Origin: Thermoguttaceae bacterium
GTDB lineage: Bacteria > Planctomycetota > Planctomycetia > Pirellulales > Thermoguttaceae
DNA length: 34,412 nucleotides
Assembly (NCBI GenBank): GCA_017652805.1
Contig: JAGCAH010000104.1
Location: forward strand, 1-34,412
Reading direction: 5' to 3'
The translations under genes and the position numbers were made by a program. This document shows positions 5,002 to 33,317 of this stretch, piece by piece (position 1 is the first letter of the stretch; every line of letters begins with the position of its first letter). The notes beneath the pieces are model-generated. The model worked only from the letters and a program-made list of their open reading frames with translations, had not been told where the DNA came from and made no database searches.

Positions 5002-5088
5002 CGGATGAGGTGGGATTCGAACCCACGGACGGCGTAAACCGTCGCCGGTTTTCAAGACCGGTCCCTTCAACCACTCGGGCACCCATCC
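5002..5088 (-). tRNA. tRNA-Ser (anticodon UGA)
   Basis: An 87-base class II tRNA on the minus strand. The acceptor stem pairs GGATGGG with CTCATCC (one G-U), and the discriminator is G as expected for serine. The anticodon loop CTTGAAA is closed by CCGGT/ACCGG and gives anticodon TGA. A long variable arm (GACGG/CCGTC) is present, and the T arm is GTGGG-TTCGAAT-CCCAC. The 3' CCA is not encoded. Confidence 0.96.
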
Positions 5089-18597: not shown

Positions 18598-19872
18598 ATG
18601 ATGATACTGATCTTTCTGCTGACGTTCTTCGCGACGGTCGCAGTCTTCGGTTCCGATGAGGAACGGAACGAAAACTTCGACGAGTCGAAAGTCGTCCCCT
18701 ACACTCTTCCCGACCCGCTGATTTGCAGCGACGGCACTCCGGTAACCTCGCCCGAACTCTGGACGGAAAGGCGTCGGCAAGAGATCCTCGATCTTTTCGC
18801 GACGCAGATGTACGGAGTCATGCCGCAGTGCGACCATTCAAAACTGCGGTGGGAAACACGGCGCGTAAACCCAGCGGCTCTCGGTGGAAAAGCCGTTTTC
18901 AAAGAGGTGCGGATTTGGTTTGACGCACCGAACCCATATCCGAAAATCGATATTCTCGTCTGTCTTCCCCGCAATTCGGAACGGCCGGTTCCCGCGTTTC
19001 TGGGTCTCAACTTCAACGGGAATCACACGATCAGCGACGACGCGTGGATCTCCCCGCCCGACGGTTGCGATGGGGTTCATCTTCGCGGCAAAGATCCGCA
19101 AACCGAACGGGGAACGATGAAACACCGCTGGCCGATCGAAAAGATCGTCGACCGGGGCTACGCGCTCGTCACCGGTTACTATGAGGAGATCGATCCGGAT
19201 TTTGACGACGGGCGCCAAAACGGGGTTCATCCCCTCTTTGCCCCTTTCGAAGCCGATATTCCGGAACCTTCCCGCGCGGCGACGTTCACCGCCTGGGGGT
19301 GGGGACTCTCGCGAATTCTCGATTGTCTCGAAGAGATGCCTGAAATCGACGCTCGGCGCGTCGCGCTCGTGGGACATTCGCGGCTCGGAAAGACCGCTCT
19401 CTGGACGGGCGCCGGCGACCAGCGGTTCGCGATGGTCATTTCGAACGATTCCGGCTGCGGCGGCGCGGCGCTTTCGCGGCGCAATTTCGGGGAGACACCG
19501 AAACTACTCGTGACGGTGCGCCCCCATTGGTTCTGCCCCTATTTCCGCCGCTACACCGACGACCCGCAACAGATCCCGTTCGACCAGCATGAGCTGATCG
19601 CACTCATCGCGCCGCGGCCGGTCTATATCGCCAGCGCCGACGATGACCTTCCGGCCGACCCGAAAGGAGAATATCTCGCGGCTCTCGCCGCCGATCCGGT
19701 CTATCGGCTCCTTGGCACGGACGGAATCGGCGGCGCGACCGACACCCCGCCGGAGGCGGACCGTCCGGTCGGCGCGACGATCCGTTATCACCGCCGAAGC
19801 GGGAAACACGACCTCACCGTATACGACTGGGAACAGTACATTAGTTTTGCCGACATGTATATAAAGCAGTAG
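18598..19872 (+). CDS. CE15-type glucuronoyl esterase-like hydrolase, copy 1
   Basis: Probable secreted esterase cleaving 4-O-methyl-glucuronoyl esters that link glucuronoxylan to lignin. The 424-residue protein begins with a hydrophobic signal (MMILIFLLTFFATVAVFGS). The alpha/beta-hydrolase elbow is GHSRLGKTALW (nucleophile S261), followed by ISNDSGCGGAALSRR and the His motif SGKHD (H404), which is the bacterial CE15 pattern. The mature N-terminal block DPLxCxDGTPVT-PELWTE-RR is shared with its neighbour. No clear ribosome site precedes ATG 18598; a second ATG follows at 18601. A weak promoter-like TTGATA (18558) lies upstream. The next gene is a paralogue of equal length 34 bases away. Confidence 0.85.
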   Translation: MMILIFLLTFFATVAVFGSDEERNENFDESKVVPYTLPDPLICSDGTPVTSPELWTERRRQEILDLFATQMYGVMPQCDHSKLRWETRRVNPAALGGKAVFKEVRIWFDAPNPYPKIDILVCLPRNSERPVPAFLGLNFNGNHTISDDAWISPPDGCDGVHLRGKDPQTERGTMKHRWPIEKIVDRGYALVTGYYEEIDPDFDDGRQNGVHPLFAPFEADIPEPSRAATFTAWGWGLSRILDCLEEMPEIDARRVALVGHSRLGKTALWTGAGDQRFAMVISNDSGCGGAALSRRNFGETPKLLVTVRPHWFCPYFRRYTDDPQQIPFDQHELIALIAPRPVYIASADDDLPADPKGEYLAALAADPVYRLLGTDGIGGATDTPPEADRPVGATIRYHRRSGKHDLTVYDWEQYISFADMYIKQ

Positions 19873-19906: not shown

Positions 19907-21181
19907 ATGAAAAACTTATTCATCGTGTCTGTTCTGGCCGCCTGCGCCTGGACCGCCGCCGTCTGCTCGGACGAGTGGAAAGAAAACGAAGACGAGTCGA
20001 AAGTCATTTCCTACACCCTTCCCGATCCGCTTCTCTGTCAAGACGGCACTCCCGTAACCACCCCCGAACTCTGGACCGAAAAACGGCGCGGTGAAATTCT
20101 CGAGATGTTCCGTATGCAGATGTACGGGATGATGCCCGATTACGACAAATCGAAATTCCGCTGGGAAACTCTGCGTGTCAATCCGGTTGCCCTGAACGGG
20201 AAAGCGGTCTTTAAGGAGATCCGCATTTGGTTCGATGCGCCGAACGCCAGACCCAAAGTCGATATCCTCGTCTGTATTCCCCGCAGCGCGGCCGGACCGG
20301 TCCCCGCTTTCCTGGGCTTTAATTTTTATGGGAATCACGCCGTGAGCGACGATCGATGGATATCACTTGCCGATTGTCCCGACGGAACCCGTGTACAGGG
20401 AAAAGATCTCGAGACACAGCGGGGACGCTCGAAAACCCGTTGGCCGATTGAGACGATCATCGATCGGGGATACGCCCTTGTTACCGCCTACTACGAAGAG
20501 ATCGTGCCGGACTGCAACAACGAACGTTCTCTCGGAGTCTACCCTCTTTTTGCCTCCTTTGAAGAGAATCTTCCCGAACCTTCGCGCGCCGGAGCGATCA
20601 CCGCCTGGGCATGGGGACTTTCGCGGATTCTTGACTGCCTTGAAAACATTCCCGAAATTGACGCAAAACGCGTTGCCGTGATGGGTCATTCACGGCTTGG
20701 GAAGACCGCGCTCTGGGCGGGAGCGAATGACCCGCGGTTCGCCCTGGTGATCTCAAATGATTCCGGCTGCGGCGGGGCAGCCCTTTCACGCCGAAATTTT
20801 GGAGAGACGCCGGAATTTATGGATCAGGTTATCCCGTACTGGTTCTGTCAGTATTACAGCCGCTACGCAAAAGATCCGACGCAAATTCCGTTCGATCAGC
20901 ATGAACTGATCACCTTAATCGCACCGCGTCCGGTTTACGTCGCCAGCGCCGACGAAGACCTCTGGGCTGACCCGAAGGGGGAATTCCTCTCCGCGTGGAA
21001 TGCCGATCCGGTCTACCGTCTTCTCGGAACCGCGGGAATCGGCGGCATCGCCGACGTTCCGCCCGAAACGAACGTTCCGGTCGGCGAGGTGATCCGTTAC
21101 CACCGCCGAAGCGGCAAACACGACGTAACGGATTTCGATTGGAACGAATATCTCAATTTCGCCGACAAGTACATGAAGTAA
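19907..21181 (+). CDS. CE15-type glucuronoyl esterase-like hydrolase, copy 2
   Basis: A 424-residue paralogue of the preceding gene, alignable end to end without obvious gaps but with many substitutions, so the duplication is not recent. The signal peptide is MKNLFIVSVLAACAWTAAVCS. The catalytic elbow is GHSRLGKTALWAG (S262), with ISNDSGCGGAALSRRNFGE and His in RRSGKHD (H405). Active-site segments are conserved between copies, while the region before the elbow (residues 150-215) and the C-terminal loop vary, suggesting different substrate preference. AAGGAG lies ten bases before the ATG, a much stronger ribosome site than copy 1. It is co-transcribed with copy 1 and ends at a strong bidirectional terminator. 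Confidence 0.87.
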   Translation: MKNLFIVSVLAACAWTAAVCSDEWKENEDESKVISYTLPDPLLCQDGTPVTTPELWTEKRRGEILEMFRMQMYGMMPDYDKSKFRWETLRVNPVALNGKAVFKEIRIWFDAPNARPKVDILVCIPRSAAGPVPAFLGFNFYGNHAVSDDRWISLADCPDGTRVQGKDLETQRGRSKTRWPIETIIDRGYALVTAYYEEIVPDCNNERSLGVYPLFASFEENLPEPSRAGAITAWAWGLSRILDCLENIPEIDAKRVAVMGHSRLGKTALWAGANDPRFALVISNDSGCGGAALSRRNFGETPEFMDQVIPYWFCQYYSRYAKDPTQIPFDQHELITLIAPRPVYVASADEDLWADPKGEFLSAWNADPVYRLLGTAGIGGIADVPPETNVPVGEVIRYHRRSGKHDVTDFDWNEYLNFADKYMK

Positions 21182-21254: not shown

Positions 21255-23354
21255 TTACTCTTCGTCTTCCTGCAGGTCGGCGGCGGCGATCACCTGCGCC
21301 TGGACGTTGCCCGGAACGACGTCGTAACGATTGAACTCAATGACGTAGCTCCCCTGGCCCCCCGTCATACTGGCGAGCGAGCGGCTGTAGGTCATCACTT
21401 CGGCGAGCGGAATCTCGGCCTTGATGACCTGCATGCCGCCACCGGCCGATTCGCTTCCGGTCTGCCGACCGCGGCGGGTCGAAAGGTCCGAACAAATATC
21501 ACCGACCTTGTCATCCGGAACGGTGACTTCGAGGTTCACGATCGGTTCGAGAAGCGAAGGACGCGCTTCCTGGAAGACGTTCTTAAAGACGTTCGACGCA
21601 GCGGTCTTGAACGCCTGCTCGTTACTGTCGACCGGGTGGTATTTCCCGAAGTGGACTTCGACGCAGAGGTCCTGAACGTGATAACCGGCGATAACGCCCT
21701 TCTCCATCCGTTCTTTGAACCCCTTTTCAATGGCGGGCATAAAGTTGGCGGGAATCGTACCGCCGACGACCGAGTCGATCCAGAGGAAGTTGTTTTCGGG
21801 GAAATGCTTGAACTCCTTCATCGACGGGAACCGCTCTTTGTTCGTCGCGAACTCTTCGGGATCGGTTCCGCCCGGGAACGGATACATGCGGATATGGACT
21901 TCGCCGAACTGACCGGCGCCGCCCGACTGCTTCTTGTGGCGGTACGAACCGCTCGCTTCGGCCTGGATCGTTTCACGATACGGAATCTTCGGCTCTTTCG
22001 TTTCGAGTTCGACCTTATCGCGCCGCTTCAGGCGTTCTTGCAGAACCTGGAGATGAAGCTCGCTCATCCCGGTGATGATCAGCTGTTTGGTCTGGTCGTT
22101 CCGTTCGACCAGGAAGGTGTTGTCCTCTTCGGCGAGCTTGGTAAGCGCGCCGCTGACCTTCGCTTCGTCGCCGCGGCTCTTCGGCGAGGCAGCCAGACCG
22201 ACCATCGGGGTCGGGAACGCGAAGGCGGGGAAGGTCAGGTCGCCGAGCGAGGTACCGGTGTGGAGTTCTTCACTCTTGGTCACCGCCACAATCGAGCCGG
22301 GCCCGGCTTCGTCGACCGGCTGGAGCTGATCGGCCTGAATTTCAAAAAGCTGCGCGATCTTCAGGCCGCGGCGCGACGACGAGGCGGCAATCTGCATTCC
22401 GGTCTTGAGCGTACCGTTAAAGACGCGCATGTAGTTAATCTTCTGAACGAACGGGTCGATCCGGGTTTTGAAGACGTGCGCGGCGACCGGGCCGTTCGGA
22501 TCGGCTTTCAGTTCAACGTCGTTCCCCTCGGCATCCTTGACCGTACGGGTCAGGAAGTTCGCCGGAAGGGCGTAGGCGGCCAGGGCGTCCATCAATTCGT
22601 TGAGCCCGACCTTTGTCTTCGACGAGACGCAGAACATCGGAATGAGCGAACCTTCGACCATCCCCTTGGCGATCAGCGCCGACATCTGAGCTTCGTCGGG
22701 AAGTTCCCCTTCGAAATATCTTTCCATCGCGGCGTCATCGACCGAAACGATCGATTCGATGAGCGATTCGTGAATCTGAGCCGGATCGACCAGAGCGCCG
22801 GCGGCGTCGGCCGGAGGATTGAGTGTGCTGACCACACCCGAGAATTCATGACCGTGCCCGATCGGAACGTTGAACAGAACCGCTTCCTGACCGAAGACGT
22901 CCTGAATGTTGGCGATAAGGGATTCGAAATCGATATTGTCGCCGTCCATCTTGTTAATAATCACCAGGCGGCCAAGTCCCGCCTTCTTCGACTCGGCGAA
23001 AACGCGGCGGGTGTTGACCTCAATCCCGGACTGCGCGTTGATCACGATCGCGGCGGTGTCGACGCCGCCGAACGAACCGATCGTCGCGCCGATGAAATCC
23101 GGGTAACCGGGGTTATCGACGATATTGAACCGTTTCCCGGCGTGGTCGAAATGGATAATGCTCGATTCGATCGAGTACTTATGGGCTTTTTCTTCGTCGT
23201 CGAAGTCACAGATGCTCGAACCGTCGTCAACACTGGCGTTCTTGTTCACCGTCCCCGTCACGCAGAGGAGGGTATCGGCGAGAGTCGTCTTTCCCGAACC
23301 GCCGTGACCGCAGAAGGCAATGTTACGAATATTCTCGGCTGTGAATTTAGACAT
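21255..23354 (-). CDS. Elongation factor G-like protein (EF-G2 type)
   Basis: A 699-residue translational GTPase with all five EF-G domains. G1 is GHGGSGKT (16-23) instead of AHIDAGKT. G3 is DNPGYPDF (80-87), with Tyr84 where canonical EF-G has the catalytic His of DTPGH. G4 is NKMD (134-137). Domain IV carries SYRHKKQSGGAGQFGEV. These substitutions define the EF-G2/FusA2 group rather than housekeeping EF-G or tetracycline-resistance TetM-type proteins. No ribosomal protein genes or tuf are adjacent, which also argues for a paralogue. Its function is unsettled; the mycobacterial EF-G2 has been reported to lack ribosome-dependent GTPase activity. A promoter is visible upstream, and the 3' end faces the bidirectional terminator. 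Confidence 0.9.
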   Translation of the reverse strand: MSKFTAENIRNIAFCGHGGSGKTTLADTLLCVTGTVNKNASVDDGSSICDFDDEEKAHKYSIESSIIHFDHAGKRFNIVDNPGYPDFIGATIGSFGGVDTAAIVINAQSGIEVNTRRVFAESKKAGLGRLVIINKMDGDNIDFESLIANIQDVFGQEAVLFNVPIGHGHEFSGVVSTLNPPADAAGALVDPAQIHESLIESIVSVDDAAMERYFEGELPDEAQMSALIAKGMVEGSLIPMFCVSSKTKVGLNELMDALAAYALPANFLTRTVKDAEGNDVELKADPNGPVAAHVFKTRIDPFVQKINYMRVFNGTLKTGMQIAASSSRRGLKIAQLFEIQADQLQPVDEAGPGSIVAVTKSEELHTGTSLGDLTFPAFAFPTPMVGLAASPKSRGDEAKVSGALTKLAEEDNTFLVERNDQTKQLIITGMSELHLQVLQERLKRRDKVELETKEPKIPYRETIQAEASGSYRHKKQSGGAGQFGEVHIRMYPFPGGTDPEEFATNKERFPSMKEFKHFPENNFLWIDSVVGGTIPANFMPAIEKGFKERMEKGVIAGYHVQDLCVEVHFGKYHPVDSNEQAFKTAASNVFKNVFQEARPSLLEPIVNLEVTVPDDKVGDICSDLSTRRGRQTGSESAGGGMQVIKAEIPLAEVMTYSRSLASMTGGQGSYVIEFNRYDVVPGNVQAQVIAAADLQEDEE

Positions 23355-23499: not shown

Positions 23500-23527
23500 T
23501 TGAACCGAATCCTCTTTTCCCTATAAT
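23500..23527 (+). promoter_or_regulatory. Promoter of the arrestin-like gene, predicted leaderless start
   Basis: TTGAAC (23500-23505), 16-base spacer, TATAAT (23522-23527). The first in-frame ATG (23526) lies inside the -10 box, so it cannot be the start. Transcription should begin at about 23534-23538, at or just before the ATG at 23538. Confidence 0.6.
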
Positions 23528-23537
23528 GATGGGCGTT

Positions 23538-24137
23538 ATGGAATACTCCCCTCAAATTCCCATTGTCTTCGACACGCGCGAAAGCTGGGCGTATCAGCCG
23601 GGCGATTCGCTCTCGGGAAAATTCTATCTTGACGGGATTAACAGCGACGCGATTTCGACCGTTGAGCTTTCGGTTCTCTGGCAGACCGAGGGGAAAGGAA
23701 ACGTCGACTTCGGAATCCACCACCTCGAACGGCGGGCCGTCCGCAAAAACGAGAGCGTCGGCGGCAAACAGCCCCTCTGGTTCGACGACAGCAAGGGGAA
23801 CAGCTTCAACGTTCGGCTCCCCTCCTCTCCCCTTTCGTACGATGGGGAACTGATCAAAATCTACTGGCTTGTTCGGGTTCGCGTCTTCATGGAAGACGGG
23901 AGGGTCTTTACCGACGAGCACGTCTTTCGGCTTGGCGACCTCACGAGCCTTCCCCTCCTGCGTAAAGGGATCGAAAAGACCGAATCGGTCAACGGCAGCG
24001 GCAAATCCGCCGAACCGGAATCTCCCGCCGGGCTGAAATCGACTGCCGAGCCGGCCAAACCCGCCGAGCCGGAATCCGAGCCTGACACGCAGGCCGCCCC
24101 CCCTCAGTCCGCAACAGAGGCCACGGCGAATGATTAA
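23538..24137 (+). CDS. Arrestin-like beta-sandwich protein with Pro/Ala/Glu-rich tail
   Basis: A 199-residue protein without signal peptide or membrane segment. Residues 1-145 alternate in a beta pattern, with WAYQPGDSLSGKFYL near the start and LPSSPLSYDGELIKIYWLVRVRVF in the middle (given here as the region about 94-118). This resembles arrestin-fold or Spo0M-like proteins by pattern only, not by a close match. The last 50 residues are low-complexity Pro/Ala/Glu/Ser repeats, probably disordered. The start at 23538 is chosen from promoter position. The stop overlaps the next gene by eight bases, so it is coupled to a P-loop ATPase. The pairing looks like a planctomycete gene cassette of unknown function. 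Confidence 0.6.
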   Translation: MEYSPQIPIVFDTRESWAYQPGDSLSGKFYLDGINSDAISTVELSVLWQTEGKGNVDFGIHHLERRAVRKNESVGGKQPLWFDDSKGNSFNVRLPSSPLSYDGELIKIYWLVRVRVFMEDGRVFTDEHVFRLGDLTSLPLLRKGIEKTESVNGSGKSAEPESPAGLKSTAEPAKPAEPESEPDTQAAPPQSATEATAND

Positions 24138-24867
24138 GGCCAACACACCCTCGTCCGTTTCGGGAGTCTCGTTCAATCCGTTTTCCGTCGGCTACGTTCA
24201 ACCCGGTTCCATCCCTTATTTTTTCGAACCGACATTCATCGAAGAGATCCGCCGGTCCGCCTCGTCCCTCTACGTTCAGGCGTTCGCCGAGGCGTTCCAG
24301 AAAAAAATGGAGCTATCCACCTGGATCGGATGTCGGTATCTGGACGAGAAGTTCGCCGCCGGGCGGTATCGCGCCCAGGTGGTCGGCCCGCACGGGAGCG
24401 GAAAATCGACGATGACCGAGTCGTTCGCCAAATACCTTAACCTAACCGGAATCGGCGTGGTGAAATCGGCGATCCATTCCGGTACGCATACCCTGCCCGA
24501 CGAATTGCGCGCCGAACTCGATCGGCGTCCCGCCGATGATGCGGTAAAATGTGTCGTGATCTTCGACGGATACGAACAGTTGGGCGCGCTCAGCCGACTC
24601 CGCCTGCGCCGACTCTGCCGATCGAAAAATCTGGGACTCCTGGTCACGACACATAAACGGCAATGGTTCGTCGGACCGGTTCTCTATCGAACGGCGACAT
24701 CGGATGAAACGCTTGAAAAGATTGTCTCTTATCTGCTCGACGATTCGCAGCGCTGTCCGGGCAAGACGATCCTCCGCGAACTGCGCCGCCGTCATAAAAA
24801 CAACGTCCGCGCCATTCTCGACGGTCTCTACGACTGGTGGAATGGCGCGCGCCGCGGGACCGTTTAA
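24130..24867 (+). CDS. Small P-loop ATPase coupled to the arrestin-like gene
   Basis: A 245-residue cytoplasmic nucleotide-binding protein. Walker A is GPHGSGKST (86-94). Walker B is CVVIFDGYEQL (141-151, with D146 and E149), and a sensor-like LLVTTH follows near 178. An N-terminal motif, NPFSVGYVQPGSIPYFF (16-32), precedes the P-loop and may be a partner or nucleotide-lid segment. The C-terminus (ILRELRRRHKNNVRAILDGLYD) is helical and basic. It belongs to no named family I can assign; similar short P-loop proteins occur in planctomycetes. It starts eight bases inside the preceding gene and ends eight bases from the convergent GIDE-LemA gene. Confidence 0.65.
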   Translation: MIKANTPSSVSGVSFNPFSVGYVQPGSIPYFFEPTFIEEIRRSASSLYVQAFAEAFQKKMELSTWIGCRYLDEKFAAGRYRAQVVGPHGSGKSTMTESFAKYLNLTGIGVVKSAIHSGTHTLPDELRAELDRRPADDAVKCVVIFDGYEQLGALSRLRLRRLCRSKNLGLLVTTHKRQWFVGPVLYRTATSDETLEKIVSYLLDDSQRCPGKTILRELRRRHKNNVRAILDGLYDWWNGARRGTV

Positions 24868-24875
24868 GAATCTCT

Positions 24876-26171
24876 CTACACCTCTATCTGAACCGGCGGG
24901 CGTTCAAACTCCTCGGCGTGGAAATACTCCTGCCTCTTGACGCCGCTCAGCCGGGCGACGAGCCCTTCGGGGAACGCCTCGCACCGACTGTTCACATATT
25001 CCACCGTGTCGTTGTAATACTGCCGCGCCAGCGCGATCCGGTCTTCGGTTTCGACCAGGTTCTTTTGAAGGTTCAGAAAGAGCGGTTCGCTTTTCAGCTG
25101 GGGGTACTTTTCGATCACGGCGAGCATCCGGTCCGCGACCGGAACCAAAACCCCTTCCCGATTGGCGTCGGAAACCGTCTTCACCTCGAGCTGCGAACGG
25201 AGCGCGGCGATCGCCTCCTGCGTTTCGGCCTCGTAATCGCGGATCCCCTTCACCGCGTCGACCAACGGGGTGATCAGCGAATAGCGGCGTTTCAGTTCCA
25301 CGTCGACATTCGATCTCGCCTGTTTCGATCGGTTCTTCAGTCTCACCATCGACTGATGCACAATCCAGAGCCAGCCGGGAAAGAGCGCCGCCAGACCGAC
25401 GGGAATCCCCCAAAACGAATCGACCCAGTTTTGAAACGTCACGCCGAAAATCAGCATGGAAATCAGAACAAAGACCACCCAGGAAGCAACCGACGCCGAA
25501 TGAACACCCGAGGTGATCTCCTCTTCCGTCCTGGTGGAAATCAGATACTCGGGATGCTCCTTATCCCACGCCACTTCGGCCGCCACTGCGTCGTCCCGAA
25601 CCCGCGCGCGGCCCGAGACGAAGATCGTCTGACCGAGAAGAATCGCCGACTCGGAAAAGCGCCGGTTCCCGGTCGAATCGGAAATCGCTTCGCGGGGACC
25701 GTGCTTATAGTAAAGCGGGTCGTCCTCGGTACACGTCTCGTAGAAGGTGGTTTTCGGCTCAATTTTCGCCTTTTCGGGATTGATCCGCACGACACCGGTT
25801 TCGTCCTTTAAATAAAAAGGCTTCACATTCGTAAAACCGTCGACGGTGGTCCAACCCGAGGTCACCCGCTCTTCCATTTCGGTATAGGTTTTGCCGTTCG
25901 AGTCTGTGCGTGTGACAGGAACCGTTTCGGTCCGCCGCCATTCTTCTTCGACCGACCAGGAATACCAGACCGCATCTTGCGACGTCAGCGTGGTTTTCAT
26001 CGGCAGGGAGAGTACGGCTTCCCCTTTCAGCTCCACCTCGCCGACGAAGACCGCGACCGTTTTCGACGTCGGCGTATCTTCATAGAGACGCCGACGCCGT
26101 TCATTCGCGATAAACGCCCAGTAACAGATCGGGCCGAAAATCAGAGAAACAAGAGCGGCAATGATTATCAT
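24876..26171 (-). CDS. GIDE-like domain fused to LemA domain, three membrane segments
   Basis: A 431-residue membrane protein. A first membrane helix (about 3-22) is followed by a beta-rich domain (about 35-210). That domain has VFVGEVELKGEAVLSLPMKT, a WYSWSVEEEW segment and SGRARV, resembling the GIDE/BAM domain of the mitochondrial E3 ligase MUL1. Two further membrane helices (about 229-247 and 254-272) lead into a LemA domain (275-425) with the signature SNVDVELKRRYSLITPLVDA and the late block ARQYYNDTVEYVN. No RING finger is present. LemA proteins are widespread bacterial membrane coiled-coil proteins of unclear function, so the role of the fusion is unknown. It begins three bases after the alcohol dehydrogenase stop, so they share a transcript. 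Confidence 0.75.
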   Translation of the reverse strand: MIIIAALVSLIFGPICYWAFIANERRRRLYEDTPTSKTVAVFVGEVELKGEAVLSLPMKTTLTSQDAVWYSWSVEEEWRRTETVPVTRTDSNGKTYTEMEERVTSGWTTVDGFTNVKPFYLKDETGVVRINPEKAKIEPKTTFYETCTEDDPLYYKHGPREAISDSTGNRRFSESAILLGQTIFVSGRARVRDDAVAAEVAWDKEHPEYLISTRTEEEITSGVHSASVASWVVFVLISMLIFGVTFQNWVDSFWGIPVGLAALFPGWLWIVHQSMVRLKNRSKQARSNVDVELKRRYSLITPLVDAVKGIRDYEAETQEAIAALRSQLEVKTVSDANREGVLVPVADRMLAVIEKYPQLKSEPLFLNLQKNLVETEDRIALARQYYNDTVEYVNSRCEAFPEGLVARLSGVKRQEYFHAEEFERPPVQIEV

Positions 26172-33244: not shown

Positions 33245-33317
33245 CGCGGGGTGGAGCAGTTGGTAGCTCGCGAGGCTCATAACCTTGAGGTCAGGGGTTC
33301 AAGTCCCCTCCCCGCCA
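33245..33317 (+). tRNA. Initiator tRNA-fMet (anticodon CAU)
   Basis: A 73-base tRNA with anticodon loop CTCATAA. Initiator features are an unpaired first position (C1 opposite C72), the A11-U24 pair in the D stem (GAGC...GCTC) and G30-C40/G31-C39 beside the loop. Two points differ from the E. coli initiator: position 72 is C rather than A, and the third anticodon-stem pair is A29-U41 rather than G-C. The T arm is AGGGG-TTCAAGT-CCCCT and the discriminator is A. CCA is not encoded. Confidence 0.93.

Follow-up and report, generated by a model that had tools for sequence, protein, structure and literature searches.

Two overlapping genes for an arrestin-like protein and an ATPase

We analysed a 34,412-nt contig of a Thermoguttaceae bacterium (Planctomycetota; hereafter the window), which carries on its forward strand a gene for an arrestin N-lobe-like protein (ARR) and, overlapping its 3′ end, a gene for an ATPase (Table 1). 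The eight-base overlap, claimed in an earlier note made from the sequence, is borne out by the coordinates of the two reading frames. Homologues of ARR were found in 37 of 40 related genomes and those of the ATPase in 36 of 40, nearly always in single copy; both reading frames are therefore real, conserved genes rather than chance ORFs. Short overlaps are recurrent: when the ATPase start codon closest to the ARR stop codon is taken, 45 of 107 scored loci have a four-base overlap and seven an eight-base overlap, lengths that rest on inferred start codons.

The pair lies between a divergent EF-G-like gene and a convergent gene whose product is a membrane protein joining a GIDE E3-ligase-like domain (E 1.6e-15) to a LemA domain (E 6e-38). 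Upstream, two adjacent paralogous genes for 424-aa secreted hydrolase-like proteins (18598-19872 and 19907-21181, both +) form a tandem duplication common to close relatives, and the window contains two tRNA genes (5002-5088, −; 33245-33317, +). The neighbouring genes yielded no clue to a cargo.

Table 1 Features of the ARR–ATPase locus and its flanking genes in the window
Feature	Position (nt)	Strand	Basis or remark
EF-G-like gene, divergent from ARR	21255-23354	-	Named from its sequence
Sigma-70-like promoter match TTGAAC-16-TATAAT, directly 5′ of ARR	23500..23527	+	Weak evidence (match to the consensus)
ARR, arrestin N-lobe-like protein, 199 aa	23538..24137	+	ATG 23538, TAA 24137
ARR arrestin-fold beta-sandwich (modelled), residues 1-135	23538..23942	+	Disordered tail after ~135
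ARR/ATPase gene overlap, eight bases	24130..24137	+	ORF coordinates
AAA+ ATPase, 245 aa, one module (ASCE core and helical lid)	24130..24867	+	ATG 24130, TAA 24867
ATPase conserved N-terminal arm NPFSVGYVQPG, residues 16-26	24175..24207	+	Family form NPFSTRxxRPG
ATPase Walker A GPHGSGKST, residues 86-94	24385..24411	+	Family alignment
ATPase Walker B strand end DGYEQL, residues 146-151	24565..24582	+	Family alignment
ATPase invariant H175, after fourth core strand	24652..24654	+	Sensor-1 region by position
ATPase invariant R227, in lid	24808..24810	+	Sensor-2 position
LemA/GIDE gene, convergent with ATPase gene	24876-26171	-	Domain matches

ARR adopts the fold of a single arrestin lobe in structural models

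In the AlphaFold model of ARR (84 family sequences), the first 135 residues form a confident beta-sandwich, except for a loop near residues 71-80, and the C-terminal tail is of low confidence and disordered, in agreement with the architecture that the earlier note had read from the sequence. Conserved positions in the domain comprise W48, G52-K-G54, D57 and the motif LPxSPLSYxG..W, the counterpart of the LP..S(Y/F).G motif found in arrestin lobes. Foldseek returned as the best PDB matches the N-lobe of ARRDC3 (E 5e-7), TXNIP, Spo0M, Vps26 and arrestins, while VIA-align placed Vps26A first (Z 12.3, rmsd 3.0 over 117 residues) and gave Z 10.6 for Spo0M (rmsd 2.7 over 113 residues). Nearly all of the best structural matches listed by the two methods belong to the arrestin clan, and at the level of fold the domain is a lobe of the seven-stranded arrestin beta-sandwich type. 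Judged from these models, ARR almost certainly has an arrestin fold.

In the profile searches that the earlier note had proposed for both proteins, the arrestin signal of ARR was weak by sequence. The window's protein stays below the Pfam Arrestin_C cut-off (13.5 versus 27.7 bits), and Arrestin_N has no match in the window's genome; across the family, each of the two models matches 36 of 84 members. When the family profile was compared with PDB sequences, 16 of the 17 matched were arrestins, TXNIP, ARRDC3 or Vps26, each with a poor E value. The description of the first protein as arrestin-like thus holds for its fold, with ARRDC3, Vps26 and Spo0M as the nearest solved structures, but not for a whole arrestin: ARR is a single lobe, as opposed to the N-lobe and C-lobe joined in one soluble chain of arrestins and Vps26.

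An ATPase built as one complete AAA+ module

The earlier note had described the second protein as a minimal P-loop ATPase with clean Walker A and B motifs, a conserved N-terminal motif and no known effector domain. The motifs were confirmed (Table 1), and with them a Walker A and B signature typical of AAA+ proteins; "minimal", however, understates a protein whose AlphaFold model (pLDDT 93) comprises a whole AAA+ module, core and lid. The lid is made up of helices at residues 192-242 with R227 at the sensor-2 position, and residues 11-245, i.e. the entire module, align with chains of RFC, ORC and Cdc6 (Z up to 12.8). Structure comparison returned RFC, ORC, Cdc6, MgsA, MuB and Hda as the closest folds, whereas a profile search of PDB sequences gave mainly matches confined to the P-loop. 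No domain beyond the AAA+ module was found in the 245 residues.

Across the family, K92 of Walker A (100%), H175 and R227 are invariant, D146 of Walker B is conserved in 97%, and the N-terminal arm is kept almost without exception (N16 and P17 100%, F18 99%). No arginine other than R227 is invariant, including at the canonical arginine-finger position, for which reason an active ATPase ring is not assured; R164, which precedes strand 4, is an arginine in 78%.

A membrane protein may supply the second lobe

In most of the neighbourhoods examined, although not in the window's genus, a gene for a membrane protein of ~440 aa (MEM) lies upstream of ARR. DUF3592 (PF12158) scored 38.1, 51.8, 28.3 and 50.2 bits in four of these proteins against a cut-off of 25.3, and just below it in a further one (locus L097); the domain falls between predicted transmembrane segments 1 and 2. 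Hydropathy and charge counts suggest four transmembrane segments in total; DUF3592 would then face outward, and both the basic N-terminus and the C-terminal 140 residues would lie inside. Variants of MEM that retain the C-terminal region but have no DUF3592 between the first two segments occur at L081, L101, L102, L103, L191 and other loci. At L271 (G285:C38), two tandem DUF3592-like membrane proteins match the MEM lobe in their C-terminal part, with no ARR match nearby.

A direct profile comparison of the C-terminal region of MEM with ARR was not significant, and a PDB profile search with this region gave no matches. A connection comes from single-chain proteins in divergent planctomycetes, the first part of which matches the ARR profile and the last part the profile of the MEM C-terminal region. 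One of these (L262) scores 38.9 bits to the former and 64.4 bits to the latter, and exceeds the Pfam cut-offs for both Arrestin_N (65.3 versus 24.9 bits) and Arrestin_C (32.0 versus 27.7 bits). One or two transmembrane segments are predicted between the parts in the nine single-chain arrestins that were checked. Because these proteins join both parts, ARR is most simply read as an N-lobe and the end of MEM as a C-lobe, so that, to go by their profiles, one arrestin would be split over two genes.

MEM and ARR are also fused at L106 and L243, in the order C-lobe then N-lobe. A clustering of neighbours placed ARR and MEM in one cluster, apparently through the L106 fusion, and was not counted towards homology; a two-lobe model of this fusion was dropped because MAFFT aligned the MEM rows with the ARR lobe.

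The components stay together through rearrangement

Of 124 distinct ARR loci, 116 had enough uncut sequence on both sides to be scored for gene order; 97 of them showed the order MEM–ARR–ATPase, and a part was missing in the remaining 19. In the window's genome, MEM lies on another contig (G000:C234:2507-3691), 132 nt by profile match downstream of, and in the same direction as, a gene resembling the RpoA C-terminal domain, and five other genomes of the genus have MEM equally close to such a gene (132-181 nt). This gene, encoding a small protein (for example L115:3775-4197, −), is found upstream of MEM at 57 of 113 loci. In the window and in three relatives, the ARR–ATPase pair adjoins the EF-G-like gene. 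In this genus MEM has therefore most likely kept its old place beside its usual upstream neighbour, and ARR and the ATPase have relocated jointly. The opposite split was seen in another genus (g54), where MEM and ARR remain together and the ATPase is encoded elsewhere, with all parts kept. What the earlier note had called a two-gene cassette is a pair linked across planctomycetes, as proposed, but belongs to a set of three components. Of the two outcomes that the note would have counted against its reading, separate occurrence of the genes in most genomes and a first protein whose predicted structure is no arrestin fold, neither was observed.

At three divergent loci a related ATPase gene lies directly 5′ of a single-chain arrestin gene, overlapping it by eight bases in G386 and by 17 bases in the ORF listing of G222, and abutting it in G197. 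Such single-chain versions, together with the reversed order, make plain that the lobes vary in their covalent state, whereas an ATPase often remains close by.

Far from occurring independently, the genes co-occurred in the phylum sample: among 294 genomes, a full-length ATPase (a match of over 90 bits) was present in 23, and all 23 had both lobes. Ten more of the sampled genomes had both lobes without this ATPase by that profile, a number that falls to seven once the divergent ATPases of G386, G222 and G197 are counted. In one genome (G441), a fragmentary ATPase match lies at the end of a 3.8-kb contig, and no lobe was found. The co-occurrence of ATPase and lobes gives a Fisher p of ~1e-26, a value that ignores relatedness, with positives spanning about ten families. 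A genome-wide pattern search returned 80 loci among the matches listed, all from planctomycete records or from MAGs named merely as "bacterium"; given that the profile searches covered Planctomycetota, a restriction to this phylum does not follow. Plasmids searched with one of the single-chain arrestins gave no match.

A proposed membrane-tethered arrestin adaptor

Computation establishes the folds of ARR and the ATPase, the gene order, the joint occurrence, the joint relocation and the natural fusions, and the structural part of our interpretation—an arrestin lobe and an AAA+ protein in a three-component system—is very probably correct. To this we infer the topology and lobe fold of MEM, a physical complex and an action of the ATPase. 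Taken as a whole, we propose a membrane-tethered arrestin adaptor of three components in which the ATPase would control docking of the N-lobe on the membrane C-lobe, and assign this reading a probability of roughly 0.4.

ARR and the single-module ATPase would be made together from their overlapping genes and form a soluble complex, which we propose because the genes overlap and have relocated jointly. The C-lobe would be the predicted cytosolic end of the four-segment MEM, with DUF3592 on the outer side. The ATPase might then spend ATP to load the ARR N-lobe onto the membrane-bound C-lobe, or to strip it off, and the completed two-lobe arrestin could grip a membrane protein or lipid and alter its activity or placement. 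The trigger is perhaps a signal sensed through MEM, possibly from outside. A narrower version, in which a clamp-loader-like AAA+ protein assembles the arrestin out of its two lobes, the N-lobe being soluble and the C-lobe anchored in the membrane, would amount to an ATP-gated arrestin and an undescribed bacterial machine; this we regard as doubtful. If true, it would be a prokaryotic arrangement that could have a bearing on how the arrestins and Vps26 of eukaryotes arose.

Among the alternatives, an unlikely one that nevertheless survives best is a signalling regulator similar to Spo0M, with the lobes as a pathway scaffold and the AAA+ protein as a slow nucleotide switch, and with no ATP-driven assembly or disassembly. 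It would fit the likeness of the ARR fold to Spo0M, the weak matches of the ATPase family to STAND/NACHT models and the lack of an invariant arginine finger; yet Spo0M is a soluble two-lobe protein, whereas here one lobe would be anchored in the membrane. The Spo0M model (PF07070), for which controls gave matches, had none in the window's genome and matched only one of 84 ARR family members (E 0.29). A lower probability attaches to the ATPase being an Hda/ORC-like DNA or replication factor, tethered by arrestin and MEM so that DNA is positioned or regulated at the membrane. Its best folds fall in this group and one family member matches the Hda model weakly (E 3e-4), but the 245-aa protein has no DNA-binding domain, the partners of arrestins are usually binders of protein or lipid, and no replication neighbour is conserved across lineages.

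The earlier note had suggested trafficking in compartmented planctomycetes, which would give the system a trafficking or coat function inside their membranes, retromer-like through its Vps26-like lobe. This we consider improbable: the N-lobe of Vps26 leads the VIA-align matches and MEM would provide membrane anchoring, but a common fold proves no function, none of the present results shows trafficking, and experiments favour a modified Gram-negative cell plan for planctomycetes and argues against endocytosis-like uptake (Boedeker 2017, PMC5394234). A defence or conflict system of membrane sensor, adaptor and STAND-like ATPase, which the component layout and the weak STAND-model matches recall, is very improbable, as the genes are near-universal, single-copy and vertically inherited in the order, whereas defence genes are patchy and mobile; the proteins carry no known effector domain, and the PADLOC defence models gave only weak P-loop-level matches, to mads_8 (E 3e-4 to 7e-3). 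Coincidental synteny of unrelated housekeeping genes has next to no credibility and is largely contradicted: most loci come from one order with vertical inheritance, so that adjacency is partly phylogenetic inertia, but the shared move of ARR and the ATPase in the window's genus, the converse separation in g54, where every part is retained, the ATPase-first order in divergent lineages, the fusions and the recurrent short overlaps all speak against it.

Comparison with known systems

Arrestins are central to receptor control and sorting in eukaryotes. With alpha-arrestins (ARRDC3, TXNIP) and beta-arrestins (PF00339, PF02752), ARR has the arrestin-lobe fold in common, and its single-chain planctomycete relatives exceed both Pfam cut-offs; ARR itself differs in being one lobe below these cut-offs, with an AAA+ partner and a second lobe that would reside in a membrane protein, and no receptor or ubiquitin-ligase motif is known in its system. 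In Vps26 both lobes belong to a single soluble chain that binds Vps35; compared with Vps26 and Vps26C (retromer, retriever), the planctomycete lobes appear separated, anchored to the membrane and linked to an ATPase. The ATPase aligns over its whole module with the clamp-loader/ORC-Cdc6/Hda group, from which it is set apart by a single module without a DNA-binding or extra domain, by the NPF N-terminal arm and by its linkage to an arrestin gene. MEM carries the domain of DUF3592 membrane proteins (up to 51.8 bits), to which two transmembrane segments and a putative C-terminal arrestin-like lobe are added; the DUF3592 part has been lost in some.

Spo0M, the sporulation control protein of Bacillus subtilis, is like ARR a prokaryotic protein of the arrestin clan, but ARR consists of one lobe, with an ATPase and a probable partner lobe borne by a membrane protein. 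A 2008 survey of the clan names only Spo0M as a prokaryotic family (Alvarez, PMC2515105). The open-access literature yielded no description of planctomycete arrestins or of the MEM–ARR–ATPase system, which is apparently a known fold in an undescribed arrangement. It would add a further, widespread arrestin family in planctomycetes, with lobes split between membrane and soluble protein and a dedicated AAA+ partner; since the partners are defined, the complex can be tested and the lobes occur naturally both in one chain and split, the role of bacterial arrestins becomes directly testable. One highly divergent MEM–ARR pair (L122, in G029), the ARR of which lies just above the Spo0M cut-off, is a possible bridge to Spo0M.
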